A stretch of DNA of 43,213 bases from a bacterium (GTDB lineage Bacteria; Oederibacteriota; CAKKQC01): contig CAKKQC010000010.1 in NCBI GenBank assembly GCA_919901855.1, forward strand, positions 1 to 43,213, read 5' to 3'. Under the pieces are notes generated by a model. It was given only the letters and a program-made list of their open reading frames with translations. It ran no database searches and had not been told where the DNA came from. Shown here in pieces: positions 8,045 through 43,213 of this stretch. Within the stretch, counting starts at the first letter, position 1; the number at the start of each line of letters is the position of its first letter. A program made the position numbers and the translations under genes.

Positions 8045-8053
8045 TGCTAACAT
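8045..8053 (+). promoter_or_regulatory. Extended -10 promoter of the FN3-like gene
   Basis: TGC followed by TAACAT forms an extended -10. It ends 6 nt before the ATG at 8060, so transcription would start at or next to that codon. No convincing -35 is visible. Confidence 0.45.
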
Positions 8054-8059
8054 ATGCCC

Positions 8060-8902
8060 ATGAGACCCGCCGCCCGCCCGAGCCTGATTCTCCTGCTGTG
8101 CACCGCTTCCCTCACCGCTTCCGCCGCCGAGGCGCCTACCGGCCTCACGGGCTGGAGATCGGCCCGCGGGATAACGCTCTCCTGGTCGCAGTCGCCGGCG
8201 GGCGGGTTCACGATCTGGCGGGGGACCGTGTCCGGCTCCCTGCGGACGCTCGCGTCCCTGCCGCCCGGCCAGGGCGGGTTCTGGGACACGTCCGCCGCGC
8301 GGCTGCAGGGGTACGTCTACGCGCTCGGCGATTCCCGGTCGCACGGCCCCGAGCTCGTCCTGGCGGGGGCGCCGCCGCCGGTCCGGATCATGGCCGGGCA
8401 GGTCACGACGTGCAGTGGGCTGAGGCGGGACGCCGTGTACCCCGCGGACACGCAGGCGTTCTTCACTCCTTCCCGGGACGCGTTCGTCGAGTACTTCGGG
8501 TATTTCCTCATGCGGCCGTTCGATCCGACCGTGCGGGAAGCCCGGATCGTGTGGCGCGACCCGAAGGGAGGGGTGTTCGCCGAGTACTCGCACCCGATCA
8601 CGCCCCGGCGCGTCGAGCTCCCGGAGGGGCCCGTCGGCCAGATCGTGCTGCCCCTGTCCATCGGTCTGCGGCAGGTCGTCGCGCAGAACGGGCAGACCCG
8701 GGTGCCCACCGAACCCGGGACCTACACGGTAGAGGCGTTCGTGGACGACGTGCCCGTGTCGCTCACGGTGTGGTACCTGCGGGAGGAGGCGTCGAAGAAG
8801 GCGGCCCCTCCAACAGGTGCTTCTGCACCTGGGGGCGCCCTGGAGCCGTCGCTTCCCGGCACCATGCCGCGCACCCCTCTGCCGGGCACCGCCCTCCCGT
8901 GA
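8060..8902 (+). CDS. Secreted protein with N-terminal fibronectin type III-like domain
   Basis: The protein has 280 residues. A signal peptide covers about residues 1-22: a basic start, then an LILLLCTASLTA-type core, then ASAAEAP. Residues 24-95 look like an FN3 domain: TGLTGW, then an ITLSWS strand, a FTIWRGT strand and a GYVYALG strand. The rest (about 100-250) is beta-rich, ending in a VEAFVDD and LTVWYL strand pair and a Pro/Gly-rich tail. I do not recognise a family for that part. I prefer ATG 8060 over ATG 8054 because 8054 directly abuts the -10; both give the same mature protein. The stop overlaps the GTG of holA as GTGA. It follows the giant repeat protein, so a shared surface role is possible but unproven. 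Confidence 0.8.
   Translation: MRPAARPSLILLLCTASLTASAAEAPTGLTGWRSARGITLSWSQSPAGGFTIWRGTVSGSLRTLASLPPGQGGFWDTSAARLQGYVYALGDSRSHGPELVLAGAPPPVRIMAGQVTTCSGLRRDAVYPADTQAFFTPSRDAFVEYFGYFLMRPFDPTVREARIVWRDPKGGVFAEYSHPITPRRVELPEGPVGQIVLPLSIGLRQVVAQNGQTRVPTEPGTYTVEAFVDDVPVSLTVWYLREEASKKAAPPTGASAPGGALEPSLPGTMPRTPLPGTALP
8814..8831 (+). repeat. Perfect hairpin with TTCT loop inside the FN3-like gene
   Basis: CAGGTGC (8814-8820), loop TTCT (8821-8824), GCACCTG (8825-8831). It falls in the Pro/Gly-rich tail coding region. It has the same loop and the same GC loop-closing bases as the larger hairpin in holA at 9637-9662. Confidence 0.5.
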
Positions 8903-10095
8903 GCCCGCCCCGCGCGGGGTGGACATCCGCCCCGCCTGACGGCATCCCGACCGCCGAGACCGCCCTGCGGTCCCTCTCCGCGAAGACCATCCGGCCCGTC
9001 TACTTCCTCGTGGGCGACCAACCGTGGATTCAGGCCCGCCTGGCGGCGAGGATCCGGGAGCTCACGGTGCCGGAAGACTGGCGGTCCATGAACGCGGAGA
9101 CGGTCTGGGCCGACGAGGTGCCCGAGGGACGCGTCGCGGACGCCGCGTCGACCCCGCCGTTCGGGAGTCCGCGGCGGTTCGTGCTGTGTCGGGGGGTCGA
9201 GGCCTACCGGGGGGGCGCGCCTTCCGGTACCGGTTCCTCCGCCGCGGACGATGCCGACGAGGAGGCGCCGGCGGCCGCGCCGCGCAAGCGCCGGTCGAAG
9301 GCGAGCAAGTCCGAGGCGACCCCCCTGGTCGACTACGTGTCCCGGCCGTCTCCGGACACGGTCCTCGTCCTGACCTCGGAGAAGCGCGACCTCAAGTGGT
9401 GGGCCGGCGACGCCCTCTTCGAGGCCGCGGAGGCGGCGGGGGCCGTGGTCGCGTGCCTGCCGCCGGCGGACCTGCGGGGCTGGCTGGCGGAGCAGGCGGC
9501 GGGGCTGGGGGCGAAGCTCGAGCCCGCCGCCGCGGAGGAACTCGTGGAGAGGGCCGGGGCGGACCCGCTTCTCCTGCTACGGGAGCTCGAGAAGTTGTCC
9601 GCCTACGTGGGCGGGCCGGGAATCGCGTCGCCACACGGGGTTTCGGCTTCTGCCGAAACCCCGAGAGCTGCTCTTGCAGCTCCAATCACCGTCGAGCACG
9701 TGCAGGCGCTGACGGGCGAGACGGCTCCGCCGTCGGTGTTCGCGTACCTCGACGCGCTCTTCGTCGAACGCCAGCCCGCCCGGGCGCTGAGCCTGCTGGC
9801 CCGCCTGCTGGAGGAATCGCACCCGCTCGCGCTGCACGCCATGCTGCTCGGCCAGCTGCGCAAGCTCGTGGCCCTCAAGGGGGCGCTGGCCGCCGGGCTC
9901 ACGGACTGGCAGATCGTGGGCAAGATCCGCCTGCCGTTCGCGCTCGTGGGGTCGCTCAAGATGATGGTGGGGCGCACGAGGCCCGAGCGGTTCGCGGCGC
10001 TCCTGCGGGCGCTGGCCCAGGCCGAGCGGGAGTTAAAGCGCGGCCGCGAGGGCCGCGCGGTCCTCGAGGACCTGACGATCGAATGCTGCCGGTGA
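8899..10095 (+). CDS. holA: DNA polymerase III subunit delta
   Basis: The 398-residue protein matches the clamp-loader delta subunit, which opens the beta clamp. Visible landmarks are PVYFLVGDQPWIQ near residue 33, RRFVLCRGVEAY at 92-103, TVLVLTSEKRDLKWW near 154-168, and LLLRELEKLSAYVGG near 225-240. The C-terminal part has LSLLARLLEESHPLALH and LLGQLRKLVALK. Delta normally lacks a working Walker A, and none is seen. The start is GTG at 8899, giving a GTGA overlap with the upstream stop; the frame is open further upstream but reads as non-coding. Two insertions are odd. A charged low-complexity linker covers residues ~104-141 (DDADEEA then RKRRSKASK). A hairpin-encoded insert covers ~240-262, between YVGG and ITVEHVQALTGE. 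The hydrolase gene downstream overlaps by 13 bp. Confidence 0.9.
   Translation: MSPPRAGWTSAPPDGIPTAETALRSLSAKTIRPVYFLVGDQPWIQARLAARIRELTVPEDWRSMNAETVWADEVPEGRVADAASTPPFGSPRRFVLCRGVEAYRGGAPSGTGSSAADDADEEAPAAAPRKRRSKASKSEATPLVDYVSRPSPDTVLVLTSEKRDLKWWAGDALFEAAEAAGAVVACLPPADLRGWLAEQAAGLGAKLEPAAAEELVERAGADPLLLLRELEKLSAYVGGPGIASPHGVSASAETPRAALAAPITVEHVQALTGETAPPSVFAYLDALFVERQPARALSLLARLLEESHPLALHAMLLGQLRKLVALKGALAAGLTDWQIVGKIRLPFALVGSLKMMVGRTRPERFAALLRALAQAERELKRGREGRAVLEDLTIECCR
9637..9682 (+). repeat. Double-hairpin palindromic insertion inside holA
   Basis: Two adjacent perfect inverted repeats are present. GGGGTTTCGGC (9637-9647), loop TTCT, GCCGAAACCCC (9652-9662); then GAGCTGC (9665-9671), loop TCTT, GCAGCTC (9676-9682). 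They lie within a stretch of about 70 bp (about 9617-9687) that codes extra residues absent from ordinary delta subunits. The reading frame is preserved. Confidence 0.7.
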
Positions 10096-10925
10096 CGACG
10101 GGGCTCCGCCTCCTGGCGGTGGCCGTCCTCGCCTACACGGCCCTCATGGTCGTCGTCGCCGTCTTTCAGCGCCGCCTCCTCTACATCCCCTCGCGCGGCT
10201 ACCCCGTCACGCCCGCCGCGATCCGCCTGCCATTCGAGGCGTCCCTCCTCACCGCGTCGGATGGCGTGCGGCTTGCTGCCTGGTGGATTCCGGGGATGCG
10301 GAAGGACGCTCCCGTCATCCTGTACTTCCACGGGAACGCGGCGACCCTCTCGAGCCTCGTCGAGCTCGCCGGCGCTTTCCGGTCGGCGGGGTTCGCGTTC
10401 GCGGCCGTGGACTACCGGGGGTACGGGGAGAGCGGCGGATCCCCGACGGAGGCCGGGCTCTACCGCGACGCCGAGGCGGCGTGGAGCTGGGTCACGGGCC
10501 GGGGTGCGGCCCCTGGCGCGGCCCCGGGCCGAGTCCTCGTCTGGGGGCAGTCGCTCGGCGCGGGCCCGGCGTCGTGGCTGGCGTCGCGGGTGCCGTGCGC
10601 CGGGATCGTGCTCGAGGGCGCCTTCCCGTCGGTGTACGCCTCGGCGCGCCTGCACTACCCGGCGATGTGGCTCCCGCCGTTCGCGATTCTCGACCGGTAT
10701 CCGGTCACGGCGCACGTGGCGAAGGTCGCGTGTCCCGTCCTCGTGCTGCACGGGGAACTGGACCGGATCGCGCCGCCCGCGTTCGGCGGCGCGGTCTTCG
10801 AAGCGGCGCGGGAGCCGAAGCGGCTCGTGATCATACCCGGCGCCGACCACAACTCGATCACGCCGGACCTTCCGGTCGTGCGCGCCGCGCTCGACGGGTT
10901 CCGAATGGTCTGCCTGAAGGACTGA
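10083..10925 (+). CDS. Membrane-anchored alpha/beta hydrolase (BEM46/YqkD-like serine hydrolase)
   Basis: The protein has 280 residues. Residues 5-26 form one membrane anchor (LLAVAVLAYTALMVVVAVF), followed by RRLLYIPSRGYP, typical of the BEM46/ABHD13 type. The fold landmarks are in order: an oxyanion HGNA segment (ILYFHGNAATLSSL), a DYRGYGESGG strand, the nucleophile elbow GQSLGAG, then HGELDRIAP with the acid and PGADHN with the catalytic His. The substrate cannot be read from sequence. ATG 10083 overlaps the holA end by 13 bp, so the genes are probably co-transcribed. The 3' end overlaps the convergent YfhO-like gene by 68 bp. Confidence 0.85.
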   Translation: MLPVTTGLRLLAVAVLAYTALMVVVAVFQRRLLYIPSRGYPVTPAAIRLPFEASLLTASDGVRLAAWWIPGMRKDAPVILYFHGNAATLSSLVELAGAFRSAGFAFAAVDYRGYGESGGSPTEAGLYRDAEAAWSWVTGRGAAPGAAPGRVLVWGQSLGAGPASWLASRVPCAGIVLEGAFPSVYASARLHYPAMWLPPFAILDRYPVTAHVAKVACPVLVLHGELDRIAPPAFGGAVFEAAREPKRLVIIPGADHNSITPDLPVVRAALDGFRMVCLKD

Positions 10926-12867: not shown

Positions 12868-12869
12868 TC

Positions 12870-13139
12870 CTATTTCTTGCTGGCGGGGAACTTCCGGTTG
12901 ACGAACTCGGCCAGCCTCGACTTGTGCCGCGCGGCCGTCCGCCAGTGCACGAGATCCTTGTGCGCGCCGCGGTCCAGCAGGCCGCTTGCCGTCTTCAGGG
13001 CCGCCAGCGCGGCATCCCGGGTGGCGGCCGCCTGCACGGCATGGATGGCGGTCGACAGCCGCGTGTCCCGGGCCTGATTGCGGCCGGTCCGGCGGGCCGT
13101 GCGGCGGATATCCTTGATCGATGACTTCAGGTTCGCCAT
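12870..13139 (-). CDS. rpsT: 30S ribosomal protein S20
   Basis: The 89-residue basic protein has the S20 signature: MANLKSSIKDIRRTAR at the start, then an R-rich helix, a segment ending SGLLDRGAHKDLVHWRTAARHKSRL, and a lysine-ending tail. It binds 16S rRNA early in small-subunit assembly. The length fits the family. No SD is visible. A -10 lies 8 nt before the ATG, so the transcript appears leaderless. The stop TAG is followed two bases later by the presumed CTG start of the YfhO-like gene. Confidence 0.95.
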   Translation of the reverse strand: MANLKSSIKDIRRTARRTGRNQARDTRLSTAIHAVQAAATRDAALAALKTASGLLDRGAHKDLVHWRTAARHKSRLAEFVNRKFPASKK

Positions 13140-13147
13140 GGGTCTCT

Positions 13148-13177
13148 AAGGTAGCAATGGAGCGCGGCGCCTGTCAA
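13148..13177 (-). promoter_or_regulatory. rpsT promoter (-35 TTGACA, 18 nt, -10 TACCTT), leaderless
   Basis: Read on the minus strand, TTGACA (13177-13172) is a perfect -35. After an 18-nt spacer comes TACCTT (13153-13148), with 8 nt to the ATG at 13139. The expected transcription start is within one or two bases of the start codon. Confidence 0.6.
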
Positions 13178-13259: not shown

Positions 13260-13294
13260 ATTCACATTGCCTTCAGAGCCGGTTCAGTTCGTGC

Positions 13295-13931: not shown

Positions 13932-13937
13932 TAGAAT
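13932..13937 (+). promoter_or_regulatory. -10 element of the pilS-like operon
   Basis: TAGAAT lies 5 nt before the GTG at 13943, so the mRNA would be leaderless. No SD precedes the start. Confidence 0.4.
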
Positions 13938-13942: not shown

Positions 13943-15223
13943 GTGCTCACCTGGCTCCGGAGCCGCAAGGGTTATGTCGTCTCGCTCCAGTGGCTACTCA
14001 CAGTCGTGGTCGCGATCTGGGGCGCCACAACGGGGGCGTGGCGGGAGTCACCGACCGTATTCTGGGCGCTCGTGGCCCTCTCGGCCATCGGGAACATTGC
14101 CCTCACCCGGCTGCCCCTGCCGTCGTTCTACCGGCCCGTCAACTGGATGTACATCTTCGTGGGGGACACGGTCTTCGTTGGGGCCGCCCTCTACTGCATG
14201 CGGGGTTTCGACACCGGGCTGTACCTGCCGTATTTCCTCATCATCCTGACGGCGGCTCTCACCCGCAGCATGGCCCGGGGGATGCTCGTTGCGGCCTTCG
14301 TCAGCGGGCTCTACGTGTTCCTGGTCTGGCGCGAGGGCGATGCCGCGGGCCTCCTCGATCCCGGATTGCTGATCCGCCTCCCCTTCTTCTTCATCATCGC
14401 GATCTTCACCGGCTACCTCGCCCAGAGCGCGCGTCTGCAGCAGGAGGCGCTCGAGGCCTCGCAGTCGCTGGCCGCGCGGGTCCACGAACTGCAGCAGCTC
14501 GCGGCCGGGATCGCGCACGAGGTGCGCAACCCGCTCACCGCGATCAACAATGACCTGCAGGCGATGCAGGCCCGGCTGCCGGCCGACGGCACGGAACGGG
14601 CCCTGGTCCGGGACGCGCTGGACCAGGTGAGCCGCGTCACCCGGATCGTGCAGGAGACGCTGGACCTGGCCCGCCCCGCGGTCGTGAGCGCCGGCTGGCT
14701 GGATGCGAACGTCCTGCTCGAGCGGGCGATGGCCGACGCCCTGCGACTGCCCGGGGCGTCCGGGATCGAGGTGCGGCGCCGGCTCGTCCCGCGGCCGCTC
14801 CAGTTCTGGGGCGACGCGCGCCTGCTCGAGCTGGCGCTCGCGAATATCATCCGGAACGCGGTGGAGGCGATGCCCGGGGGCGGCCTGCTCGAGGTGGAGA
14901 CGGCTCCGGACCTCTGGGGCGGACGGGAGGTCGTGGCGTTGCGGATCGCGGACAACGGCCCGGGCATTCCGCCGCACCAGCTAGCCAGACTCTACCAGCC
15001 CTTCTACACGACGAAGGCCCACGGCACGGGGCTGGGCCTGTCCCTCGCGCGCAAGTACGTGAGCGCGCACGGCGGCGAGCTTCGCGTGACGAGCCCGTCG
15101 GGGCGCGGTCCGGACGGGCAGGCCCGGGGCACGACGATCCGGATCGTGCTCCCGGTGGAGGGCGCCACCGCGGCGGCGGCGGCGCTGGCGGCGGCCGCGG
15201 ACGCGGGGAAGGGCCGTGGCTAA
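13943..15223 (+). CDS. pilS: PilS-like membrane sensor histidine kinase
   Basis: The 426-residue protein has about six N-terminal membrane segments (residues 12-160), as in PilS. A short linker follows, then the HisKA H-box AAGIAHEVRNPLTAI with phospho-acceptor H192. The ATPase domain shows the N box (NIIRNAVEAMPGGG), G1 (IADNGPGIP) and G2 (GTGLGLSLARKYV). It should phosphorylate the response regulator encoded next; the two genes overlap by 8 bp. The divergent pilin gene with a sigma-54 promoter supports a PilS role in pilin control. No periplasmic sensor domain is seen, so sensing is probably within the membrane. Start GTG 13943 lacks an SD and has a -10 just upstream. The Ala-rich tail after about residue 405 is non-conserved. 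Confidence 0.85.
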   Translation: MLTWLRSRKGYVVSLQWLLTVVVAIWGATTGAWRESPTVFWALVALSAIGNIALTRLPLPSFYRPVNWMYIFVGDTVFVGAALYCMRGFDTGLYLPYFLIILTAALTRSMARGMLVAAFVSGLYVFLVWREGDAAGLLDPGLLIRLPFFFIIAIFTGYLAQSARLQQEALEASQSLAARVHELQQLAAGIAHEVRNPLTAINNDLQAMQARLPADGTERALVRDALDQVSRVTRIVQETLDLARPAVVSAGWLDANVLLERAMADALRLPGASGIEVRRRLVPRPLQFWGDARLLELALANIIRNAVEAMPGGGLLEVETAPDLWGGREVVALRIADNGPGIPPHQLARLYQPFYTTKAHGTGLGLSLARKYVSAHGGELRVTSPSGRGPDGQARGTTIRIVLPVEGATAAAAALAAAADAGKGRG

Positions 15224-22833: not shown

Positions 22834-22840
22834 TATCATA
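22834..22840. promoter_or_regulatory. Shared bidirectional -10 element for two divergent leaderless genes
   Basis: The 7-bp TATCATA reads TATCAT on the plus strand, 7 nt before ATG 22847. It reads TATGAT on the minus strand, 7 nt before ATG 22827. Each gene thus has a TANNNT hexamer at the leaderless distance within the same bases. Confidence 0.55.
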
Positions 22841-22846: not shown

Positions 22847-25450
22847 ATGCACGCACTCTTCGTGGTCTGGGCAGTCGTGATCCTCGTCCAGCTCGCCCGG
22901 CCGCTCTCGGGCGCGTGGGCCGGGGCCATGGTCCAGCTCGGGACGGGCTGGGCCGCGCCGTCGGCCGCCGGCGTCCTCGCCGCCGCGACGGCCCACGCCT
23001 CGGTCCTCCTCGCGGCGGGCGGGATCGCGGGGGTCCTGTGGCTCGCGGGGCTCGCCGTTCTGCCGTGGAGCCGCTCCCCGCGCGGGCTCTCGGCGTTCGC
23101 CGCGTTCCCCGCCGGCTACGCGGGGGTGAGTCTCGGGTATCTCGGCCTCGCGCTGACGGGGCTCTGGTTCCCGCGCGTGCTCCTCCCGGTCCTGGTCCTG
23201 CCCGGGCTGGTCGCCGTGCTCGTCCGCGGGCGCCGGCTGCTCCCGCGCGGGACGGCGTGGCCGGCGGCGGACGGCCCGGGTGTGCTTGCGCTGGCGGTCC
23301 TCACGTGCGTCGTGCCGTGGGCGCTCGCGCCCGAGACGCACCCCGACGGCTGGGAGTACTTCCTCGCCGGGCCCGCGCGGTGGCTCGCGGCGCACCGGTT
23401 CTCGGTCCGGGGCGGGACGCCGCCCCTGCACTATCCCGACATCGCCGAGATGCTCTACGTCCTCCCGGTGTGGCTGGGGCTGGATGCGGTCGCGAAGTGG
23501 CTGAACGCGCTCGCCATGCTCTGCGGCGCGCTCTCCGTGGCCTCGCTCCTCCCGCGGGAATCGCGGAGCATGGGGTTGCTCCTGTTCGTGACCGCCGCGA
23601 CGCCGTTGTTCCTCATGACGACGGGGAAGAACGAGGGCTTCGCGGCGGGGTTCGTCCTCCTCGCGGTCGCGTGCGCGTGGCGGAATGCCTGGACGGCGGG
23701 CGGGTTCTTCGCCGGGCTCGCGCTCTCGACGAAATACCTCTCGGTGCTCAACCTCGCCTGGCTGCCGCTCCTCATGACGCCGGGGCGCCGCCGCGCCCAG
23801 TTCACGCGGTGGGCCGCGCTCGCGGCGGGCACGACGGCGGCGTGGTGGGTGAAGGCGTGGCTGCTGACCGGCGATCCCGCGTACCCGGTGGCGTCCGGGT
23901 TCCTGCCCGGTCTGGTGGACGGCTGGGACGCCCGCAACGCCCGCGTCTGGCACCTGTGCACGGCCGTCGACCGCCCGGCCGGATCCTGGCCGGTCCGGGC
24001 CGTGCAGGGGTTGACACTGGAGAACGCGGCGCTCGCGCTGTGCCTCCCCGCCCTGCTCTGGGAGAAGGGGCGGGCGCGGCTCGCGGTCGCGGGCTCCGTG
24101 GCCGTCTACGCCGCCTGGCAGATCGGGTTCCCGGGACCCCAGACCGTGCGATGGGCGTTCCCCGGCGTGGCGGCGGCGCTCGTGCTCTCCGGCGGGCCGG
24201 CCCGCCGGTGGCTGGCGGGCCCGAAATATCTGCGCACGGCGTTGCTGGCCGTCTGCGTCGCGGGCGGCGTGCACGCATTCCTGCGGCTGGCCGGGAACGG
24301 CATGAACCCCCTGCCCTATCTCGCCGGAGCCGAATCCCGGGCGGGCTATCTCGCGCGGGCCTTTACGACCCTGGTTCCGGCGTCCGACGCGGTCCGCCGG
24401 GGCTTTTCCGGCGGCGCCCTGCTCCTCGTCGGCGAGGTGCGCGAGTACGGCCTGCCCTTCCCCTGCCGGCTCGCGAGCGCGCATGCGAGCGGGGAGGCTC
24501 CGCTCCTGTGGCGGCTCGTGCACGCGAGCGCGACCGAGCGCGACCTCGAGGTCCGGTTCCGCCAGCTCGGCATCCGCCGCGCACTGTACAACTACGTCAC
24601 GGTCAAGAACGTCCAGTTCTGCCACGCGCCGTTCCGGTGGGACGACCGGATGCTCAGGCTATACGCTGGGTTCGTCCTCCGGCACTTCAAGCCCCTCCGC
24701 GTCTCCGACGTCGCGGATTTCTCCAACGGCGGGTTCATTGTCTACGGCGTGACCGCCCGGGCGATCCCGAACCCTCCGAAGACGGCGCCGTACCTCCCGG
24801 GCGCGGAGGCCTACTGCCACACGGCGGTGCCGCTGCGGAACGCCGGGCGTATGCCGGAGGCCCTGCGCGCGTACGAGGCGCTCGCCGGGCTCTGTCCCGA
24901 GGTCCTGTCGTTCCAGGCGGAGTGGGGGCACACCCTCGAAATGGCCGGCGACTGGCCGGGGTCGTTCCGCCTCCTCGGGGCCGCGGTGCGCGCCGGATTC
25001 GCGGAGCCCTTTCACCTCGTGAACTTCGGGCTCGCCGCCCTCCAGATGGATCGCTACGCCGAGGCCGACGCCGTCCTCACGCGGTGCCTGGCCGGCGCGC
25101 CGTCGCATGCGGGCGCGGTTCGCGTCTCGCTGGGCTGGGCCCGCTACGGGCTGGCGCTGGAGGCGGGGAAGAAGCGGAATCTGGCGGTCGCGGAGGTGCG
25201 ACTGGCGGAGGCCGAGGGGCTCCTGGGCCTCCCGGCGGGCCCCCCGGGCGACCGGATCGAAAACGAGCGTCGGCGGCGGCTCGCGTACGTGCGCGGCCTG
25301 CAGGGCGACCTCGCGCGCGCCCGCCGCGAGTTCCCCCGCGCCGTCGAGCGATACCGCGCGGCGGCCGCGCTCGTGCCGGGGACCAACGAGGGGAACGTCT
25401 GGTCGGAACTGGCGTCCCGCCTCGCCAACCGCGGTATCACGGGTCCCTGA
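22847..25450 (+). CDS. GT-C-like membrane protein with C-terminal TPR-like domain (paralogue A)
   Basis: The 867-residue protein has about ten membrane helices (residues 1-450) followed by a soluble half. The first large loop has HPDGWEYFLAGPARWLAAHRF, comparable to the catalytic loop of GT-C transferases. A later loop has TTGKNEGFAAGFVLLAV. The C-terminal ~250 residues look like TPR helices (EALRAYEALAGLCPEVLSFQAEWGH, then FGLAALQMDRYAEADAVL). It is homologous along its length to the protein at 30264-32873, sharing KN-x-AAGF.LLAV, YNYV-type and SNGGF/PNGGF landmarks. The function is unproven; transfer of a sugar or other polyprenyl-linked group is inferred from the fold. ATG 22847 is preferred over ATG 22826 because the -10 lies between them, 7 nt before 22847. 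Confidence 0.75.
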   Translation: MHALFVVWAVVILVQLARPLSGAWAGAMVQLGTGWAAPSAAGVLAAATAHASVLLAAGGIAGVLWLAGLAVLPWSRSPRGLSAFAAFPAGYAGVSLGYLGLALTGLWFPRVLLPVLVLPGLVAVLVRGRRLLPRGTAWPAADGPGVLALAVLTCVVPWALAPETHPDGWEYFLAGPARWLAAHRFSVRGGTPPLHYPDIAEMLYVLPVWLGLDAVAKWLNALAMLCGALSVASLLPRESRSMGLLLFVTAATPLFLMTTGKNEGFAAGFVLLAVACAWRNAWTAGGFFAGLALSTKYLSVLNLAWLPLLMTPGRRRAQFTRWAALAAGTTAAWWVKAWLLTGDPAYPVASGFLPGLVDGWDARNARVWHLCTAVDRPAGSWPVRAVQGLTLENAALALCLPALLWEKGRARLAVAGSVAVYAAWQIGFPGPQTVRWAFPGVAAALVLSGGPARRWLAGPKYLRTALLAVCVAGGVHAFLRLAGNGMNPLPYLAGAESRAGYLARAFTTLVPASDAVRRGFSGGALLLVGEVREYGLPFPCRLASAHASGEAPLLWRLVHASATERDLEVRFRQLGIRRALYNYVTVKNVQFCHAPFRWDDRMLRLYAGFVLRHFKPLRVSDVADFSNGGFIVYGVTARAIPNPPKTAPYLPGAEAYCHTAVPLRNAGRMPEALRAYEALAGLCPEVLSFQAEWGHTLEMAGDWPGSFRLLGAAVRAGFAEPFHLVNFGLAALQMDRYAEADAVLTRCLAGAPSHAGAVRVSLGWARYGLALEAGKKRNLAVAEVRLAEAEGLLGLPAGPPGDRIENERRRRLAYVRGLQGDLARARREFPRAVERYRAAAALVPGTNEGNVWSELASRLANRGITGP

Positions 25451-27745: not shown

Positions 27746-27751
27746 ATTATA
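27746..27751 (-). promoter_or_regulatory. Perfect TATAAT -10 of the beta-propeller gene, leaderless
   Basis: TATAAT on the minus strand ends 6 nt before ATG 27739. No clear -35 is seen. It is divergent from the SPT-like gene promoter about 55 bp away. Confidence 0.55.
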
Positions 27752-27805: not shown

Positions 27806-27814
27806 TGGTATGGT
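27806..27814 (+). promoter_or_regulatory. Extended -10 promoter of the SPT-like gene, leaderless
   Basis: TGG followed by TATGGT (27809-27814) forms an extended -10 that ends 8 nt before the ATG at 27823. No SD is present. Confidence 0.5.
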
Positions 27815-30263: not shown

Positions 30264-32873
30264 ATGACGACGGCGCTCGCGTTGGGGTGGGCAGCCGTCG
30301 TGATCCGCTCCGCCCGCGGCGACGGGGCCGCCTGGCTCGACCGGCTCCGCGACGCCATCCGGCATCCGCCGCAGATCCCGGCGCTTTCCGGCCTGGCCGT
30401 CGCGTGCGGGCGCCACTCGGTCACGGTCCTCGTGCTCGCCTCCCTTGCCGCGTTGGCGTGGCTCGCAGGCCGCCGCGTCGCCGCCCTCGTGCGGGCCCCG
30501 CGTGTCCCGCCGGCCGCGGGGTTCGGGTTCGCCGTCGCGTCCGGGTGGGGCCTGCTCGGGTTCCTCCTCCTTGGGCTGGCGCTGACCGGGCTCTTCCAGC
30601 CTGCCGTGGTGCTCTCCGCTATCGCGGTTGCCGGGGCCGCCGGCATCGGGGCGCCGGGACGGCTCCCCGTTCTCCCGCGGCTCGACCGGGGCACGGCCGC
30701 GATCCTGGCCGTCGTGGGCCTCCCGGGAGTCGTGCTGGGCGTCGCGGCGCTCCTGCCCGACGTCTTCTACGACACCTACGCGAACCACCTCGCGGCGCCC
30801 GCCCACGTCCTCGGGCTCCACCGGCTCGTGACCGCCGGCCAGCACTACACGATCAACTACCAGCTTGCCTCCGAGCTCCTGAACGCGCTAGCCATTGTCT
30901 TCCGGCGGGATGAAATCGCGCACGGGGTCTCCCTGATCCCGTTCCTGGCGGGGCTGGGCGTGGCCGCGGCGTGGACGGCCCGGGTCGCGGGTCCGCGGGC
31001 GGCCGCACTCGGGGCCGCGCTGGCCCTCGACCTCGGCGGGTTCTGGTGGGTGGTGCTCCGGGGCAAGAACGATCCCGCGGCGGCCGGGTTCATTCTGCTC
31101 GCCGTCGTGTTTTCCGTGGACCGGCGGTGGATCCTCTCCTCCCTGTGCTGGGGGTTCGCGCTGGCGGCCAAGCTCAACGCGTACATGCTCGCGATGCCGG
31201 CGGCCGCGCTCGCGGCGTTCGTGATCCTGCGGGCGCCCGCCGGCCGCCGCGGCCGTACGCTCGCGTGGTCCGCGGGGCTCGCCGCCATCCCCGCCCTGCC
31301 CTGGATGGTCCGGTCATGGCTCGACCGCGGGACACCATGGTGGCCGCTCCTCTCCGCCCGGTTCCACGGCGTGCCGTGGGAACCCGACACCGTGGTCGCG
31401 CTCGCCCAGTACCACACCGGGCCGTCGTTCGTGACCGAGTCGCTCTCGAGCTTCGTGCCAACGTGGCTGGCGGACAACCCCATCCTGCTCTGGGCCCTGC
31501 CCGTCGCGGCGTGGCAGCTGCGACGCGCGCCTGCGGCGCTCCGGCGGATGGGGGGATGGGCCGCGATGCTGTTCCTGTTCCTCTTTGGCGTCATCCATAT
31601 GGAGTACGGCCGGTACTCCCTGCCCATCCTCGTCCTGCTCGGGTTCGCGTGCGCGCCCGCGATCCTGTCGATGATCCCGTCCGGCCGGGGCCGGTGGATC
31701 GGGTGGGCGGCCGTCGTCGCGCTCGCGTGGGCCCCCGCGGCGGGCGCGCTCCGGGAGATGGGGCTCGGCGCCCGGGAGATCGCCGGGTACGCCTCCGGGG
31801 CGATCACGAACGGAGAGTGGATGGACCGGGTCCTGACCACGCGCCGCGCCGCCCAGCAGGCGGTGGCCGCGATGCCGGGAGTCCGCGGCGTCGTCCTCGT
31901 GGACGAGGTGTACGCCTACGGGTGGCCGGGCCGCGTCCGAACCGACGAGATCCCCGGCCGGGCGATCCCGTGGGTGCTCACCCACGAAGCGTCGACCCCG
32001 GCGCGGGTTCGCGTCGGGCTCCGGCAGTTGCGCGCCAGCCACCTCGTCCTGAACTACGTGAGCGAGGGCCACCCCTACAACGCGAGCATCTACGAATGGT
32101 CCGACCGCCAGCTCGAACTCTGGCGCGCGTTCCTGAAGCGGCACGCCGAACGCGTCGCGATCGACCTGCCATGCGACGTGCCCAATGGCGGGTTCTGCCT
32201 CTGGAGGCTCGTGGCCTCAGCTCCGCCGGAGCCGTTGTTCTACCTGCTCGGGATCAAGCCCCTGCGGGTCTGGATCCGGAAGCCGTACCTCGACGCCGGG
32301 GACGCCCCGGCCTCGGCCGCCCGCGCGCTCGCCGTGAGTGCGCGGTTTCCCGACGTGCTCGTCTTCAAAGCCGATGCCGGGCTCTTTCTGGCCGGGTCGG
32401 GCGAGTGGGCCAGGGGCTACCCGCTGCTGCGTGAGTGCGCGGCGGCGGGGATGGTGGGGGAGGCGCTCCACACGTACCTCGGGTCGGCGGCCATGCACCT
32501 GAACCGGTACGACGAGGCCCTGCGCCACCTGGCGACGGCCGGGCGGCTCTACCCCGGCGCAAGAGCCGATATCGAGGCGAGGACGGGGGAAGTGCTGGCG
32601 CGGAAGGCCCGGGCCGAACTCCGCGCCGGTCTCTACGGGCGCGCGCTCGACCTCGCGATCGAGGCGGTGCGCCTCGCGCCCGCATCTTCGTTTTCCCTCG
32701 TGACGCTGGCTGACGTGCGGATGGTGCGTGGAGAGACCGCGGAGGCGCTTGCCGGCTACCTCCGGCTCGCGTCGCTCGCGGGCGTCCCGGACGGAATCCG
32801 GCGGCACGCGGACGAGATGATCGCGAGGTGCCGGGCTACGCCCAGCGGTTCGCCCGGTACCAGTCCCAGGTGA
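30264..32873 (+). CDS. GT-C-like membrane protein with C-terminal TPR-like domain (paralogue B)
   Basis: The 869-residue protein has about ten membrane helices, then a soluble region from about residue 480. The first large loop has DVFYDTYANHLAAPAHVLGLHR; a later loop has LRGKNDPAAAGFILLAVVF. The C-terminal ~200 residues are TPR-like (AMHLNRYDEALRHLATAGRLYP, then YGRALDLAIEAVRLAPASSF). It shares order, length and landmarks with the protein at 22847-25450, so the two are paralogues. Sugar-lipid transfer is inferred from GT-C resemblance only. No SD precedes ATG 30264, and the start sits just after a 56-bp hairpin that may block read-through or ribosome access. The 3' end overlaps the convergent SDR gene by 38 bp. 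Confidence 0.75.
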   Translation: MTTALALGWAAVVIRSARGDGAAWLDRLRDAIRHPPQIPALSGLAVACGRHSVTVLVLASLAALAWLAGRRVAALVRAPRVPPAAGFGFAVASGWGLLGFLLLGLALTGLFQPAVVLSAIAVAGAAGIGAPGRLPVLPRLDRGTAAILAVVGLPGVVLGVAALLPDVFYDTYANHLAAPAHVLGLHRLVTAGQHYTINYQLASELLNALAIVFRRDEIAHGVSLIPFLAGLGVAAAWTARVAGPRAAALGAALALDLGGFWWVVLRGKNDPAAAGFILLAVVFSVDRRWILSSLCWGFALAAKLNAYMLAMPAAALAAFVILRAPAGRRGRTLAWSAGLAAIPALPWMVRSWLDRGTPWWPLLSARFHGVPWEPDTVVALAQYHTGPSFVTESLSSFVPTWLADNPILLWALPVAAWQLRRAPAALRRMGGWAAMLFLFLFGVIHMEYGRYSLPILVLLGFACAPAILSMIPSGRGRWIGWAAVVALAWAPAAGALREMGLGAREIAGYASGAITNGEWMDRVLTTRRAAQQAVAAMPGVRGVVLVDEVYAYGWPGRVRTDEIPGRAIPWVLTHEASTPARVRVGLRQLRASHLVLNYVSEGHPYNASIYEWSDRQLELWRAFLKRHAERVAIDLPCDVPNGGFCLWRLVASAPPEPLFYLLGIKPLRVWIRKPYLDAGDAPASAARALAVSARFPDVLVFKADAGLFLAGSGEWARGYPLLRECAAAGMVGEALHTYLGSAAMHLNRYDEALRHLATAGRLYPGARADIEARTGEVLARKARAELRAGLYGRALDLAIEAVRLAPASSFSLVTLADVRMVRGETAEALAGYLRLASLAGVPDGIRRHADEMIARCRATPSGSPGTSPR

Positions 32874-34308: not shown

Positions 34309-34317
34309 TGGTAGCGT
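34309..34317 (+). promoter_or_regulatory. Extended -10 promoter of rmuC, leaderless
   Basis: TGG then TAGCGT (34312-34317) ends 7 nt before ATG 34325. The hexamer is weak but the TG extension and distance match other starts in the window. Confidence 0.35.
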
Positions 34318-35555: not shown

Positions 35556-35628
35556 GCCCCCATCGTCTAGTGGCCCAGGACATCTGGTTCTCAGCCAGGA
35601 GACCGGGGTTCGACTCCCCGTGGGGGTA
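35556..35628 (+). tRNA. tRNA-Glu (anticodon CTC)
   Basis: The 73-nt cloverleaf has acceptor arms GCCCCCA (35556-35562) and TGGGGGT (35621-35627), with one G-U pair at the end. The D arm is GTC/GAC. The anticodon stem TCTGG/CCAGG holds loop TTCTCAG, so the anticodon is CTC. The T arm is CGGGG/CCCCG with loop TTCGACT. Discriminator A; CCA is not encoded. Confidence 0.95.
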
Positions 35629-37444: not shown

Positions 37445-39208
37445 ATGGCCGACCAGGTAGTTCCGTTCTCGAATCCAGCGGGCCGGGAGCTCTTCTGGCA
37501 CAGCGCCTCCCACCTCATGGCGCAGGCGGTCAAGGAGCTCTGGCCCGGGGCGTTCCTGACCATCGGCCCGGCGGTCGATGACGGGTTCTACTACGACGTC
37601 GATTTCCCCGCGCCCATCACGGAGGCGGACTTGCCGCGGATCGAGGCCCGGATGCACGAGATCGTGGACCGCGACAGCCCCATCGTGCGGCGCGAGATGC
37701 CGAAGTCGGAAGCCCTCGAGTTCTTCCGGGCGCGCGGCGACACCTACAAGGTCGAGATCCTGAACGAGATCCCGGACGCGACCGTGAGCCTCTACGAGCA
37801 GGGCGGGTTCGTCGACCTCTGCCGCGGCCCGCACGTGCCTTCGACCGGCGCGCTCAAGGCGTTCAAGATCACGTCGATCGCGGGCGCGTACTGGCGCGGC
37901 GACGAGCACAACAAGATGCTGACGCGGCTCTACGGCGTCGCGTTCCCGACGCAGGCCCAGCTCGACGAGCACCTGAAGCTCCTGGAAGAGGCGAAGAAGC
38001 GCGACCACCGCGTCCTGGGCCGCGACCTCGACCTGTTCTCGTTCCACGAGGAGATGGGGCCGGGCTTGCCGGTTCTGCACCCGAAGGGGGCGATCATCCG
38101 GCGGGTGATCGAGGACTTCTGGCGCGAAGAGCACGCCAGGAACGGGTACGAGACGATCTTCTCGCCGCACATCGGAAAGGCCACGCTCTGGGAGACCTCG
38201 GGGCACCTCGGGTTCTACAAGGACTCCATGTACGCGCCGCTCGAGATCGAGGGGCAGAAGTACTACCTCAAGCCCATGAACTGCCCGTTCCACATGCTCG
38301 CCTACAACAACCGGCAGCATTCGTACCGGGAACTCCCCATCAGGTACTGCGAGCTCGGGACCGTGTATCGCTACGAGCGCAGCGGCGTCCTGCACGGCCT
38401 CCTGCGCGTGCGCGGGTTCACCCAGGACGACGCCCACATCTTCATGCGGCCCGACCAGGTCGACGCGGAGGTGACCCAGGTCCTGAAGTTCGTCCTGTTC
38501 ATGCTCCGCACGTTCGGGTTCGCCGAATTCGACGTCTATCTCTCGACCCGGCCCGAAGGGCGCGTCGGGACCGAGGCGATGTGGGACACCGCGGAGGGCG
38601 TCCTCCTCCACGCGCTCGACGAGGCCCGGAAGGCCGGGCTCATCTCGTCGTTCACCGAGGACAAGGGGGGCGGGGTGTTCTACGGCCCCAAGATCGACGT
38701 CAAGGTCAAGGACGCGCTTGGCCATGCGTGGCAGTGCTCGACGATCCAGGTGGACTTCAACCTGCCCGAGCGGTTCGACCTGACCTACATCGCCGAGGAC
38801 GGGAGCAAGCAGCGGCTGGTCATGGTCCACCGGGCCCTCCTGGGCTCGATCGACCGGTTCATGGGCGCCCTGATCGAGCACTATGCCGGCGCCTTCCCGC
38901 TCTGGCTGGCGCCCGTGCAGGCCCGCGTTCTCACCATCACGTCGGACCTCGAGGCGTACGGTCGCGGGATCGTGGACCAGCTCAAAGCCGCGGGGATCCG
39001 GGCGGAGGGGAACTACTCGCCGGAGAAGATCGGACACAAGATCCGGGCCGCCGAGCTCGAGAAGGTCCCCTACATGCTCGTCGTGGGGAAGCGCGAGGCC
39101 GCCGACGGCAAGGTCGCCGTCCGGAAGAAGGGCAAGGGGGACGAGGGAGTGGCCGTGGTGGCCGACGTCGTCGCCCGGCTGGCCGGGGAGGCGCGGGAAC
39201 GCCGCTGA
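37445..39208 (+). CDS. thrS: Threonyl-tRNA synthetase lacking the N-terminal TGS domain
   Basis: The 587-residue protein is shorter than the usual ~640 because the ~60-residue TGS domain is absent. It starts directly with the editing domain, whose metal-site motif HSASH is at residues 19-23, followed by FYYDVDFP and later LCRGPHVP. The class II catalytic core has PMNCPFHMLAY (zinc ligand C), YRYERSGVLHGLLRVRGFTQDDAHIF (motif 2 region), and a motif 3 region with MVHRALLGSIDRF. The anticodon-binding domain ends the protein (PVQARVLTITSDLEAYG onward). Start ATG 37445 lies 4 bp after asd. No start upstream could restore a TGS domain, since that region codes Asd. The stop overlaps the presumed CTG start of nfo. 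Confidence 0.95.
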   Translation: MADQVVPFSNPAGRELFWHSASHLMAQAVKELWPGAFLTIGPAVDDGFYYDVDFPAPITEADLPRIEARMHEIVDRDSPIVRREMPKSEALEFFRARGDTYKVEILNEIPDATVSLYEQGGFVDLCRGPHVPSTGALKAFKITSIAGAYWRGDEHNKMLTRLYGVAFPTQAQLDEHLKLLEEAKKRDHRVLGRDLDLFSFHEEMGPGLPVLHPKGAIIRRVIEDFWREEHARNGYETIFSPHIGKATLWETSGHLGFYKDSMYAPLEIEGQKYYLKPMNCPFHMLAYNNRQHSYRELPIRYCELGTVYRYERSGVLHGLLRVRGFTQDDAHIFMRPDQVDAEVTQVLKFVLFMLRTFGFAEFDVYLSTRPEGRVGTEAMWDTAEGVLLHALDEARKAGLISSFTEDKGGGVFYGPKIDVKVKDALGHAWQCSTIQVDFNLPERFDLTYIAEDGSKQRLVMVHRALLGSIDRFMGALIEHYAGAFPLWLAPVQARVLTITSDLEAYGRGIVDQLKAAGIRAEGNYSPEKIGHKIRAAELEKVPYMLVVGKREAADGKVAVRKKGKGDEGVAVVADVVARLAGEARERR

Positions 39209-40065
39209 CCCCCCCCCGCATCGGCTGTCATGTCTCGATCGCGGAAGGCGTCTCGAAGGCGATCGAGCGGGCCGAGGCGCGCGAGTGCGAGTGCATCCAG
39301 ATCTTCACCACCTCGCCGCGCGTGTGGGCGCACGCCACGCACGCCGCGGAAGAGGTCGCGGGGTTCCGCGCCGGCGTGGCCCGCCTCGGGCTCGTGCCGA
39401 TCGTCGTGCACGCGAGCTATCTCCTGAACATGGCGTCGCCGGACGAGGGTCTCCGCGCGAGGAGCGTGGCCCTCCTGAGCGCGACCGCGCGGTGGTCGGC
39501 CGAGCTCGGCGCGTCCGCGGTCGTGATCCATCCCGGCTCGTGCGCCGATTTCGACGGCGGCGGGTGCGTGTCGCGGGTGGCGGAGACGCTCCGCGCGGCG
39601 TTTGCCGAGTGGCCCGCGGGCGTCGCGCTCGCGCTCGAGCAGTCCGCGGGCGGTCCCACCACGGTCGGGGGCCGGTTCGAGCACCTCATGGACATCATCG
39701 CCGCGCTCGGCGGCGACGCCCGGCTCCGGGTCTGGCTCGACACCGCGCACGCGTTCAGCGCGGGGTACGATCTCGCGCACCCCGAGGGGATCGACCGGCT
39801 GGTCGCGGACGTCCGGCGGACGGCGGGCTGGGACCGCGTCGCCGGCGTCCACGCGAACGACTCGAAGGAGCCCCTGGGCTCTCGCCGGGACCGCCACGAG
39901 AACATCGGCGAGGGGCTGATCGGGCGCGAGGGGTTCCGGCTCCTGCTGCGGCACGAGGCCTTCCGGGGCCTGCCGTTCCTGCTCGAGACGCCCGGATTCG
40001 ACGGGGAAGGGCCGGATCTCGAGAACATGACCCGGCTCAAGCAGTTGAGGGACGCAACAGGTTAA
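39205..40065 (+). CDS. nfo: Endonuclease IV (AP endonuclease), probable CTG start
   Basis: The protein has about 286 residues, normal for the family. It cuts DNA at abasic sites in base-excision repair. The three-metal ligands are all visible: VVHASYL (His), VIHPGS (His), LALEQSAG (Glu), WLDTAHAFSAGYD (Asp and His), GVHANDSKEP (His), RRDRHENIGEG (Asp and His) and LLETPG (Glu). The family N-terminus (MKIGAHVSIAGG in relatives) corresponds here to RIGCHVSIAEG at residues 5-15. No ATG, GTG or TTG lies nearby upstream in frame. CTG 39205 forms a CTGA overlap with the thrS stop, mirroring the ATGA/GTGA overlaps elsewhere in the window. A nine-C run follows, so a sequencing indel should be considered, but the other frames offer no start either. 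Confidence 0.88.
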   Translation: MTPPRIGCHVSIAEGVSKAIERAEARECECIQIFTTSPRVWAHATHAAEEVAGFRAGVARLGLVPIVVHASYLLNMASPDEGLRARSVALLSATARWSAELGASAVVIHPGSCADFDGGGCVSRVAETLRAAFAEWPAGVALALEQSAGGPTTVGGRFEHLMDIIAALGGDARLRVWLDTAHAFSAGYDLAHPEGIDRLVADVRRTAGWDRVAGVHANDSKEPLGSRRDRHENIGEGLIGREGFRLLLRHEAFRGLPFLLETPGFDGEGPDLENMTRLKQLRDATG

Positions 40066-40068
40066 TAT
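40063..40068 (+). promoter_or_regulatory. -10 element of the beta-helix gene, leaderless
   Basis: TAATAT, overlapping the nfo stop codon, ends 9 nt before ATG 40078. Confidence 0.4.
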
Positions 40069-40077
40069 GGGGCAACC

Positions 40078-42288
40078 ATGAACCTACGATTTGCGGTGTC
40101 CGCCTGCCTGCTCATCGCCTCCACCGCCCACGCCGCCCCGGTTGCGGACGCAACTGCCCGCGCGGTCGTCACCGGCACCACGCTTCCGCTGATCACCGAC
40201 GGCGCGACCGTGAAGGCCGGGGACAAGAAACAGGAGGCGCTCGAGATTCCGTTCAACCTTCCGACGCGCGGGGTCTGGTACCTCTGGTTGCGCGTCACCG
40301 CGAAGTCGGGGAGCAACAGCGTGCTCACCTACGCGCTCGACGGGAAGGGCTACCGGAGCGCCCGGGGCCGGATCACGGTCCAGCCTTCGGCGAAGTCCCA
40401 GTGGCTCTCGCATTCGGACTACCGGGAGTTCAACGCCGAGGTGCACGCGGACGCGCCCGGCGAGCACGTGCTCCGGATCCGGGCCGAGTACGGCGAGGTC
40501 TCAATCGAGAAGGTCGCGCTCACGCTCTACTTCTCCGCGAAGCCGGCCGGCGACACGCTGGACCATGCCGGCGACCCGGGCGAAGGCCAGGCGGTCTTCC
40601 CCGATGCTCCCAAGCGCGTGGACGGGTTCCGGCCGGACTGGGTTTCGCCGCCGGTCAAGGCCGAGCGCACGTACTACGTCGACGCGGCTGCCGGCGACGA
40701 TGCCCGGGACGGGTTGACGGCGGCGACGGCGTGGAAGTCCTTCCGGAACGTGAACGGCCGCGCATTCCAGCCGGGCGACGCGATCCTCCTCAAGCGCGGG
40801 AGTACCTGGGAAGAGGGACTCTCTCCGGGCGGCTCCGGCACACCGGAGAAGGTGATCACGATTGGGGCGTACGGCGACGGGCCGCGGCCCGTCATCGACG
40901 GCATCAACCGCGATGCGGTCCACCTCGAGGAGCAGTCGTACTGGACGATCCAGGATCTCGAGCTCACGACCGATCCGGCGCATCACCGGTGCGGACTCCG
41001 GGTCGAGACCACGGCGGGCCATCCCCAACCGAAGGGAATCCGGGTCTACAACGTGATCGCGTACGACAACGGCCCGTCCGGCATCTCCGTCGGGAGCAGT
41101 CACGGCGAGGGCAACGGGTACGACGGGGTGGTCATCGAGAACTGCCTCGCCTACGCGAACGACTCGGACGGCATCGTGACATCCGGGAGCGACCAGAACG
41201 GGTGCCGCAACACGGTCATCCGGTACTGCACCGCGTATTCGAACCTCTACGCGGCGGGCATCTGGATCACCTCGGGCGAGAACGGGCTGATCGAGCACTG
41301 CCTCGCCTACAACAACGCCTGCATCAATATCTGGGCCTGGAACGCGATCAACATCACGATGCGGCACTGCGAGGCCTTTCGGGGCCGGACGCCCCGGGAC
41401 GCGGGCGGGTTCGACATCGACTGGAGCGTCGAGGCGAGCACACTCGAGTACTGCTACTCGCACCACAACGAGGGCGTCGGCATCCTGCTCATGGGCGGCG
41501 GCACCGGTACCTACCGCAAGTTCCCGATGGCGAGCCGGTACAACCTCGCCCGGTACAACATTTCGGAGAACGACAACCCCGGCATCGGCATGGTCGAGAC
41601 GTTCGAGGACGGGAAGGTGGTCCACAATCTCGCCATCGCGTCGGGGGCCGGCCGCGACGGGAAGCCGAGGACGGCGATCGACATCTCGGGCTGGCCGGTC
41701 CAGCCCGACTGGGGGTCGGAGGAGCGGCACGGCGGCTGGCCGGCCCGCACCGAGTACTTCGACAACATCTTCATAGGCCGGCACGGGGCCCTGCCCGCGG
41801 CGGTCGACGACTGGGCCGCGACCAGGAAGCACGCAAACGTCTTCGACGCGAACCTGTACTGGCGCGATACGCCGGGAGCGCTGATCCGGTGGGACGGCCG
41901 GCGGAACGGCAATGGGTTCTGGATGGGGACGGAGTCGACCGACCTCAAGCCGGCGGAAGAGTTCGCGTCCCTCGAGGCGTTCCGGAAGAAGACCGGCCAC
42001 GAGCGCCACGGACTCAACGCGGACCCGGGGTTCGCGAACCCGTACCGGGGCGAGTATGGCCGGCTGCCGATGGATTCGTATCGCCTCGCGGCCGGTTCCC
42101 CGGCGGCGAAGGCGGGACGCCCGGTCACGCTCTCGAAGGCGTGGCTGAAGGGACGCGCGAAGTACCTGACGAACACGGGGGCGGAGGCGTACGGCATCCC
42201 GATGGCGCCCGCCGAGGCCGTCGAGGACTTCTGGGGCGAGCCCCTGACGCCGGGATCGTCTCCCGCGATCGGACCCTCCGGCCGATAA
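40078..42288 (+). CDS. Secreted right-handed parallel beta-helix protein
   Basis: The 736-residue protein starts with a signal peptide (MNLRFAVSACLLIASTAHA, cleavage before AP). Residues ~25-160 form a beta-sandwich-like domain (VWYLWLRVTAKSG, HVLRIRAEYGEVSIEKVAL) resembling a carbohydrate-binding module. From about residue 198 the pectate-lyase-like superfamily begins with TYYVDAAAGDDARDGLTAATAW. It continues with beta-helix rungs such as VVIENCLAYANDSDGI, VIRYCTAYSNLYAAGI, LIEHCLAYNNACINI and MRHCEAFRGRT. Cys recurs at the same place in successive rungs and would form an internal ladder. The C-terminal cap has LNADPGFANPYRGEYGRLP. This architecture is common in polysaccharide lyases and epimerases. 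The family cannot be fixed from sequence alone, so the enzyme activity is unproven. Confidence 0.85.
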   Translation: MNLRFAVSACLLIASTAHAAPVADATARAVVTGTTLPLITDGATVKAGDKKQEALEIPFNLPTRGVWYLWLRVTAKSGSNSVLTYALDGKGYRSARGRITVQPSAKSQWLSHSDYREFNAEVHADAPGEHVLRIRAEYGEVSIEKVALTLYFSAKPAGDTLDHAGDPGEGQAVFPDAPKRVDGFRPDWVSPPVKAERTYYVDAAAGDDARDGLTAATAWKSFRNVNGRAFQPGDAILLKRGSTWEEGLSPGGSGTPEKVITIGAYGDGPRPVIDGINRDAVHLEEQSYWTIQDLELTTDPAHHRCGLRVETTAGHPQPKGIRVYNVIAYDNGPSGISVGSSHGEGNGYDGVVIENCLAYANDSDGIVTSGSDQNGCRNTVIRYCTAYSNLYAAGIWITSGENGLIEHCLAYNNACINIWAWNAINITMRHCEAFRGRTPRDAGGFDIDWSVEASTLEYCYSHHNEGVGILLMGGGTGTYRKFPMASRYNLARYNISENDNPGIGMVETFEDGKVVHNLAIASGAGRDGKPRTAIDISGWPVQPDWGSEERHGGWPARTEYFDNIFIGRHGALPAAVDDWAATRKHANVFDANLYWRDTPGALIRWDGRRNGNGFWMGTESTDLKPAEEFASLEAFRKKTGHERHGLNADPGFANPYRGEYGRLPMDSYRLAAGSPAAKAGRPVTLSKAWLKGRAKYLTNTGAEAYGIPMAPAEAVEDFWGEPLTPGSSPAIGPSGR

Positions 42289-42292
42289 CGCG

Positions 42293-42298
42293 TATCAT
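42293..42298 (+). promoter_or_regulatory. -10 element of the TldD/PmbA-like gene, leaderless
   Basis: TATCAT ends 9 nt before GTG 42308. The surrounding GTATCATAG is the same as at 22833-22841. Confidence 0.4.
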
Positions 42299-42307
42299 AG
42301 GGAGTCC

Positions 42308-43213
42308 GTGAAGCGCCTCTACGCCGGACTCGCCTGGCTCGTTCTCCTTGCCGCGCCCGCGCGCGCCGAAGGGCCCGGGGTGCTCGGGGCGCTGCGCGGG
42401 GAAGTGGACCGGCTCTTCGCGAGGTTCTCGGCGCTGCCGGAGCACCCCGTCTACTACCTGTCGACCGGGGTCTTCGACACCCGGTACGTGCGCATCTCCG
42501 CGGCGTGGGGCGGCGTGCTCGAGCACAAGCGCGACGCGGACCGGGTTCTCGACCTCGAGATGCGCATCGGCACCCCCGCGCTCGACAACACGCACCACGC
42601 CTGGGGCGAGGGCGGTCCCGGCCTTCCCGTTACCGTGGACGACGACGCCGGCGCGCTGGCCGCCGACCTCTGGATCGAGGCCGAGCGCCGGTACCGGGAC
42701 GCCGCCGAGAAATACGTCAAGGTCGTCGCGGACCGGGCGGTCAAGGTCAAGGAGGAGGACCCCTCGCCCGACTTCTGTCCCGCCCCCAGGGTCTCGTTCT
42801 CGGAGGCCCCGGCCGCCCTGGTCGTGGACGAGGACGCCCGCGAGGCCGAGGTGCGCCGCGTCTCCGCCGTGTTCCGCCGGTTCCCGGAGGTCCTCGAGTC
42901 TTCGTGCACCTTCTCCGCCCAGGTCCAGACGCGCTACTTCGTCAACAGCGAAGGGTCGGCCATCGCGCAGGTCCGGCCCCTGCACGAGATCCGGCTCCTG
43001 GCCAGTTCCAGGGCGGACGACGGGATGGAGTTCACGCTATACCGGCACTGGGTCGCGAGGGACACCGCGTCGCTCGTGGGCGAGGCCGAGGTCACGGCGG
43101 AGGCCGAGTCGATCGGGCGGACCCTGACGGAGCTCAAGGCCGCGCCGCTCGTGGACCCGTTCATCGGGCCGGCCCTGCTCTCGGGGCGCGCGGCGGCCGT
43201 GCTGTTCCACGAG
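42308..43213 (+). CDS. TldD/PmbA-type metallopeptidase, N-terminal part (runs off the window)
   Basis: The frame from GTG 42308 is open to the last base (302 codons). Residues 1-21 form a signal peptide (VKRLYAGLAWLVLLAAPARA). The body has DLEMRIGTPALDNTHHAW, a Glu/Arg-rich helix with ERRYRDAAEKYVKVV, then TRYFVNSEGSAIAQ and finally PFIGPALLSGRAAAVLFHE. The final HE, preceded by GPALLSGRAAAVLF, fits the HExxxH zinc motif of TldD/PmbA proteases, which continues past the window. TldD/PmbA proteins are usually cytosolic and process modified peptides; the predicted signal peptide suggests an exported member. A longer Arg/Ser-rich open frame overlaps from 42348, but its composition is that of a GC-driven shadow. 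Confidence 0.8.
   Translation, partial: MKRLYAGLAWLVLLAAPARAEGPGVLGALRGEVDRLFARFSALPEHPVYYLSTGVFDTRYVRISAAWGGVLEHKRDADRVLDLEMRIGTPALDNTHHAWGEGGPGLPVTVDDDAGALAADLWIEAERRYRDAAEKYVKVVADRAVKVKEEDPSPDFCPAPRVSFSEAPAALVVDEDAREAEVRRVSAVFRRFPEVLESSCTFSAQVQTRYFVNSEGSAIAQVRPLHEIRLLASSRADDGMEFTLYRHWVARDTASLVGEAEVTAEAESIGRTLTELKAAPLVDPFIGPALLSGRAAAVLFHE

Follow-up and report, generated by a model that had tools for sequence, protein, structure and literature searches.

-10-like boxes at start codons suggest leaderless transcription of operon-heading genes in one bacterial family

In genome G000, genes that head transcription units often have a TANNNT hexamer that ends 5-9 nt upstream of the start codon (TA-led genes). 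Leaderless transcription, to which we assign a probability of about 0.93, appears to be the best explanation of these boxes and of the TA-led genes among operon heads. Roughly 20-40% of the genes heading transcription units, and 13-20% of all genes, would be leaderless. In the proposed mechanism, housekeeping sigma-70-type -10 elements would be so placed that transcription starts on the start codon or 1-3 nt before it, and ribosomes would engage the resulting messages directly at the 5' start codon. Many of the remaining genes, above all those internal to operons, would use Shine-Dalgarno (SD) sites pairing with an intact anti-SD. Promoter recognition seems to be based on the -10 box, with a TGn extension probably helping in a third of cases and a good -35 element in a minority. 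We infer both the position of the mRNA 5' ends at the codon and the mode of translation from the geometry of the box.

Boxes in the window

The window is a stretch of 43,213 nucleotides of G000. A sequence-only reading had reported ten TANNNT hexamers in it, and all ten are present as described, each 5-9 nt upstream of a usable start codon (Table 1), though nine of them are independent. The boxes assigned to the GT39 and GT-C A genes are a single 7-bp TATCATA, which reads TATGAT on the minus strand (22835-22840) for the GT39-like gene starting at ATG 22827, and TATCAT on the plus strand (22834-22839) for the GT-C/TPR gene starting at ATG 22847. At the FN3-like gene, a second in-frame ATG at 8054 abuts TAACAT with a gap of 0, and the 6-nt gap is that to ATG 8060.

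Table 1. Promoter-like elements upstream of gene starts in the window
Element	Position	Strand	Context
-10-like box TAACAT	8048..8053	+	6 nt before ATG 8060, FN3-like gene 8060-8902
-10-like box TACCTT	13148..13153	-	8 nt before rpsT ATG (13139)
-35-like TTGACA of rpsT	13172..13177	-	18-bp spacer to TACCTT
-10-like box TAGAAT	13932..13937	+	5 nt before GTG 13943, sensor histidine kinase, pilS-like
Symmetric box TATCATA	22834..22840	both	7 nt to each of two divergent starts
-10-like box TATAAT	27746..27751	-	6 nt before ATG 27739, BNR/sortilin-type propeller
-10-like box TATGGT with TGn extension	27809..27814	+	8 nt before ATG 27823
-10-like box TAGCGT with TGn extension	34312..34317	+	7 nt before rmuC ATG 34325
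-10-like box TAATAT	40063..40068	+	9 nt before ATG 40078, right-handed beta-helix protein
-10-like box TATCAT	42293..42298	+	9 nt before GTG 42308, putative TldD-like gene

Several of the genes concerned could be identified by their domains. The rpsT gene (12870-13139) matches Pfam PF01649, the pilS-like gene at 13943 encodes HisKA and HATPase_c domains, and the gene at ATG 27823 is a class I/II aminotransferase, SPT-like. The first 302 residues of the putative TldD-like protein gave no Pfam match. The TTGACA previously noted 18 bp from the rpsT box is indeed there, and with the arrangement TTGACA-18-TACCTT-8-ATG this ribosomal protein gene looks leaderless.

In the window alone, 9 of the 29 called starts carry a box at a chance rate of 3.3% (p ~3e-7). 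These cases were hand-picked in the first reading, so the genome-wide test described below is the fair one.

The window has other features of note. A 38-bp promoter region (TGGGGCGGAGCGG...CTTGCTAACATA) at 8017-8054 has a copy, identical at 34 of 38 positions, on the minus strand of another G000 contig (C30:13546-13583). The gene behind this copy is prepilin-like (MGRFRRGGPGTRGERGFTLVEMMVV), and its ATG lies 8 nt downstream of the TAACAT. The region common to the FN3-like and prepilin-like genes is perhaps a shared activator site. A tRNA-Glu (CTC) lies at 35556-35628, between rmuC and a methyltransferase gene. The long GT-C-type membrane proteins with TPR-like C-termini form a large family, encoded at 22847-25450 and 30264-32873 of the window and at more than 20 other places in G000; it counts 23 matches in G000, 17 in its relative G001 and almost none across the rest of the phylum.

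Enrichment at the heads of transcription units

Enrichment was measured in about 1.4 Mb of the 4.68-Mb G000 genome, a fragmented assembly of 70% GC in 91 contigs from which the window comes. Genes were called by codon usage only with a home-made script, giving 1086 genes and 90% coding sequence. Because the caller sees codon usage alone, it is blind to upstream signals and its choice of starts could not be steered by them. Dinucleotide shuffles of the same 40 bp upstream and slid windows served as controls.

Among divergent genes, 62 of 212 (29.2%) have TANNNT at 5-9 nt, against 7.1 expected in the shuffles (3.3%; z 21). Co-directional genes have the box in 41 of 299 cases (13.7%; z 12) if their upstream spacing is 40 bp or more, and in 15 of 153 if it is 10-39 bp; operon-internal genes have it in 9 of 341 (2.6%). 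It is restricted to genes heading transcription units. TANNNT ranks first among all motifs with three fixed positions in six (103 genes versus 14 in shuffles; z 26). The leaderless signature that had been proposed from the window alone therefore survives the shuffled controls strongly, as a positional enrichment that is genome-wide (29.2% versus 3.3%) and recurs in G001, which favors the leaderless reading.

The exact share depends on the start calls. If the start may be any in-frame start codon between 120 nt upstream and 60 nt downstream, 42% of divergent genes and 20% of all genes are TA-led, figures that include chance hits. Upstream alternative starts are TA-led as well in 56 of 856 cases, so that some start calls and the exact percentage are uncertain. 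Start calling is imperfect, and annotation errors of this kind are known in Deinococcus (PMC12340547) and Mycobacterium (PMC3898074). The boxes could accordingly be real promoters assigned to the wrong codons, with the true starts lying downstream behind ordinary SD-bearing leaders. However, the signal is strongest, at 40 of 95 (42%), in operon-heading genes without a nearby in-frame alternative start. Start codons inside the same genes are preceded by TANNNT in only 0.68% of cases in frame, and in 0.55% out of frame. Moreover, wrong codons would not produce the sharp mode in box-to-codon distance described in the next section. We regard misassigned starts as extremely improbable.

Directly upstream of the start codon, half of the called G000 genes have a C and only a fifth have an A or T; within the 1.4-Mb sample this bias toward C is present at operon-internal genes too.

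Anatomy of the box and use of Shine-Dalgarno sites

Aligned TA-led boxes share features beyond those fixed by the search. Position 5 of the hexamer, which the search did not force, is A in 68%. At the TGn extension, T occurs in 37% three bases ahead of the box and G in 62% two bases ahead of it, and both occur together in 38 of 120 boxes. The gap between box and codon has its mode at 6 nt (41 cases) and drops sharply below it, with 7 cases at gap 5. The usual spacing from a -10 box to the transcription start site is six bases, so that with a 6-nt gap transcription would begin at the first base of the codon, and a cut-off below 6 nt is what one expects if transcription may not begin within the gene. 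Of the 120 cases, 8 have a -35 element with at least five matches at a spacing of 15-19 bp; other spacings yield about 2. The unforced features, namely A at position 5, the TG extension and the 6-nt mode, match a sigma-70 -10 box.

SD four-mers peak 5-8 nt before operon-internal genes in G000, and the G000 sample has no such peak at 5-8 nt before TA-led genes. The earlier statement that SD sequences are mostly missing at these starts holds across the sample and is weaker at two starts of the window, where purine-rich, SD-like letters lie between box and codon (AGAAGGA in GT-C A and AGGGAG in the TldD-like gene). The 3' end of the 16S rRNA reads GGATCACCTCCTTTCT, with the anti-SD GGATCACCTCC intact. 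G000 has a full-length rpsA, the gene for ribosomal protein S1, which occurs across the phylum; the fragmented G001 assembly gave only a weak match. We therefore rejected loss or change of S1 as the cause of the leaderless habit.

A hexamer at the distance of a ribosome-binding site, at starts where SD is missing and in a genome with a full-length S1 gene, might also be a translational signal and no promoter at all. It would then be an S1 site or an AT-rich non-SD ribosome site, as has been proposed for Bacteroidetes. However, a ribosome site should be present at operon-internal genes too, yet the hexamer occurs at 2.6% of those against 29% of divergent genes. The T1 A2 A5 T6 pattern with its TGn extension, together with the weak -35 element at 15-19 bp, are likewise features of promoters, and we consider a translational signal very unlikely.

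One family among 45 genomes

The phylum comparison comprised 45 genomes including G000 and G001. G001, also a fragmented assembly, represents a sister genus and is the only other member of the family among them. In G001, 12 of 30 divergent genes are TA-led, against 1.6 in shuffles, as are 19% of all genes, and SD is found at 21% of starts. Samples from three other families of the phylum (G016, G002 and G006) show no clear TANNNT excess and have SD at 45-67% of starts. As a positive control we used Cellulomonas and related actinobacteria, which are known to have leaderless genes; there 17 of 94 divergent genes are TA-led versus 0.6 in shuffles.

Whole genomes were compared by counting TANNATN(6-7)ATG against the same box with N(16-17). 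G000 yields 341/75 and G001 yields 183/61. In the remaining 43 genomes the ratio has a median of 0.92 and reaches at most 1.45, with a weak excess in two families (f7 and f4). The strong leaderless signature is confined to one family among the 45 genomes.

These counts also bear on base composition. AT content is raised upstream of starts, and AT-richer start regions in a 70% GC genome might simply collect AT-rich hexamers. However, both controls, the dinucleotide shuffles and the slid windows, yield only 3-4%. In addition, two presumably equally GC-rich genomes of the phylum, G004 and G010, have 12-14 chance matches per Mb versus 16 in G000, and by pattern counts alone they show only 41/29 and 41/35. 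Since they have as few chance matches as G000 and no comparable signal, high GC by itself is not the cause. The shuffles, the slid windows and these counts refute a composition artefact, to which we give next to no probability.

Between the two genera of the family, 23 N-terminally aligned orthologue pairs were compared. Both members are TA-led in 5 pairs, one in 7 and neither in 11 (p 0.06), which is only suggestive of a conserved leaderless state. Two G000 genes (C7:45352-46392 and C6:293739-294842) differ from their G001 orthologues (57-69% identity) in the start signal: one genus has an SD where the other has a -10 box at the codon. Such swaps suggest that initiation mode may change from one gene to the next.

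The 16S identity of the lineage is 79.5% to a genome of the same phylum, 79.7% to Thermoanaerobaculia, and 77% each to a gamma-proteobacterium and an actinobacterium, values too close together to settle its affiliation. RmuC has only distant matches in named genomes, the best at 43% identity in a 'Deltaproteobacteria' assembly, with others in Cellulomonas and in Thermoanaerobaculia (40%).

Compact divergent pairs and a shared symmetric box

TA-led starts are frequent in compact divergent regions. Where divergent genes are separated by no more than 80 bp, the TA-led share of starts (gap 5-10) is 37 of 68; in wider pairs it is 29 of 154. A single TATNATA is common to both genes in called divergent pairs at 19, 20 and 23 bp. 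The strict pattern of start codon, 6-10, TATNATA, 6-10, start codon occurs at five places in the genome, and its reversed control occurs at none. At three of the five, the flanking genes are a called divergent pair with the expected spacing. With codons about 18 bp apart at a shared box, both messages would lack leaders. A shared symmetric -10 box with two leaderless mRNAs is thus predicted for a handful of cases.

The looser TANNNTA between divergent start codons occurs 21 times in the genome versus 23 for the reversed control. A general excess of symmetric boxes is therefore rejected, and only the stricter TATNATA stands above its control. The distances of 111 divergent pairs show no visible peak near 20 bp.

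It remains a tentative proposal, at odds somewhat short of even, that genome-wide leaderless expression, unexplained by composition, was switched on in one family of a diderm phylum that mostly uses SD, and that this family employs it for compact divergent regions in which one symmetric -10 box starts two opposite leaderless mRNAs. If this is true, the shared symmetric -10 box would be a minimal two-gene switch, with one box, two genes, no leaders and a built-in competition between polymerases.

Implications and comparison with known systems

Leaderless expression is unevenly spread across bacteria. A strongly leaderless family with SD-using related families offers a natural comparison, as S1 and the anti-SD are kept within the same phylum and initiation differs. 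For assemblies of this kind, start calling is best done with a promoter model in addition to a model of the ribosome-binding site.

Leaderless genes were already known, including in diderms; what is new here is the lineage, the sharp contrast within the phylum and the coupling to compact divergent regions. The sequence-only reading had called the signature notable for a diderm. That part is weakened by the survey of 953 bacterial genomes by Zheng et al. 2011 (PMC3160421), which found TA-led genes in Acidobacteria (3/3 genomes, mean 13.3%), delta-Proteobacteria (8/33, 15.8%) and Aquificae, as well as in Actinobacteria, Deinococcus-Thermus and others. According to a later survey, cited in PMC9581028, 21.6% of bacterial species are predicted to have leaderless transcription.

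As in the G000 genes, TANNNT in the TA-led genes of PMC3160421 lies about 12 bp before the start, counted from the first T. Unlike the groups surveyed there, the present lineage is a deep branch of its phylum, represented by assemblies. With 68% A at position 5, its box is also more TANNAT-like than the TAnnnT of high-GC Actinobacteria and Deinococcus (PMC3160421), and in our actinobacterial control TANNAT is found in only 3 of 40 TA-led genes.

Experiments support the geometry of the box in M. tuberculosis (PMC3898074) and D. radiodurans (PMC12340547). D. radiodurans, of Deinococcus-Thermus, resembles the present case in having TANNNT 6-7 bp before the ORF and a GGAG ribosome-binding motif in other genes (PMC12340547). 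Nearly a third of its genes carry the TANNNT (PMC12340547), whereas here the estimate is about 13-20%, at operon heads only and with TGn in a third. Mycobacterium tuberculosis likewise has a TANNNT -10 box and no clear -35 element, and 26% of its genes with a primary start site are leaderless by experiment (PMC3898074). It differs in its TGn extension, found in 7% versus 32% here, and in having no leaderless ribosomal protein genes (PMC3898074), whereas rpsT appears to be one here.

Bidirectional promoters (PMC12825309 and earlier work cited there) also have a shared symmetric -10 element with divergent transcription, and in E. coli their commonest start-site distance is 18 bp (PMC12825309). 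In the papers searched we found no report of a symmetric shared -10 box with both mRNAs leaderless. Unlike the promoters of PMC12825309, here the divergent start codons themselves lie 20-24 bp apart, and both mRNAs are predicted to be leaderless.
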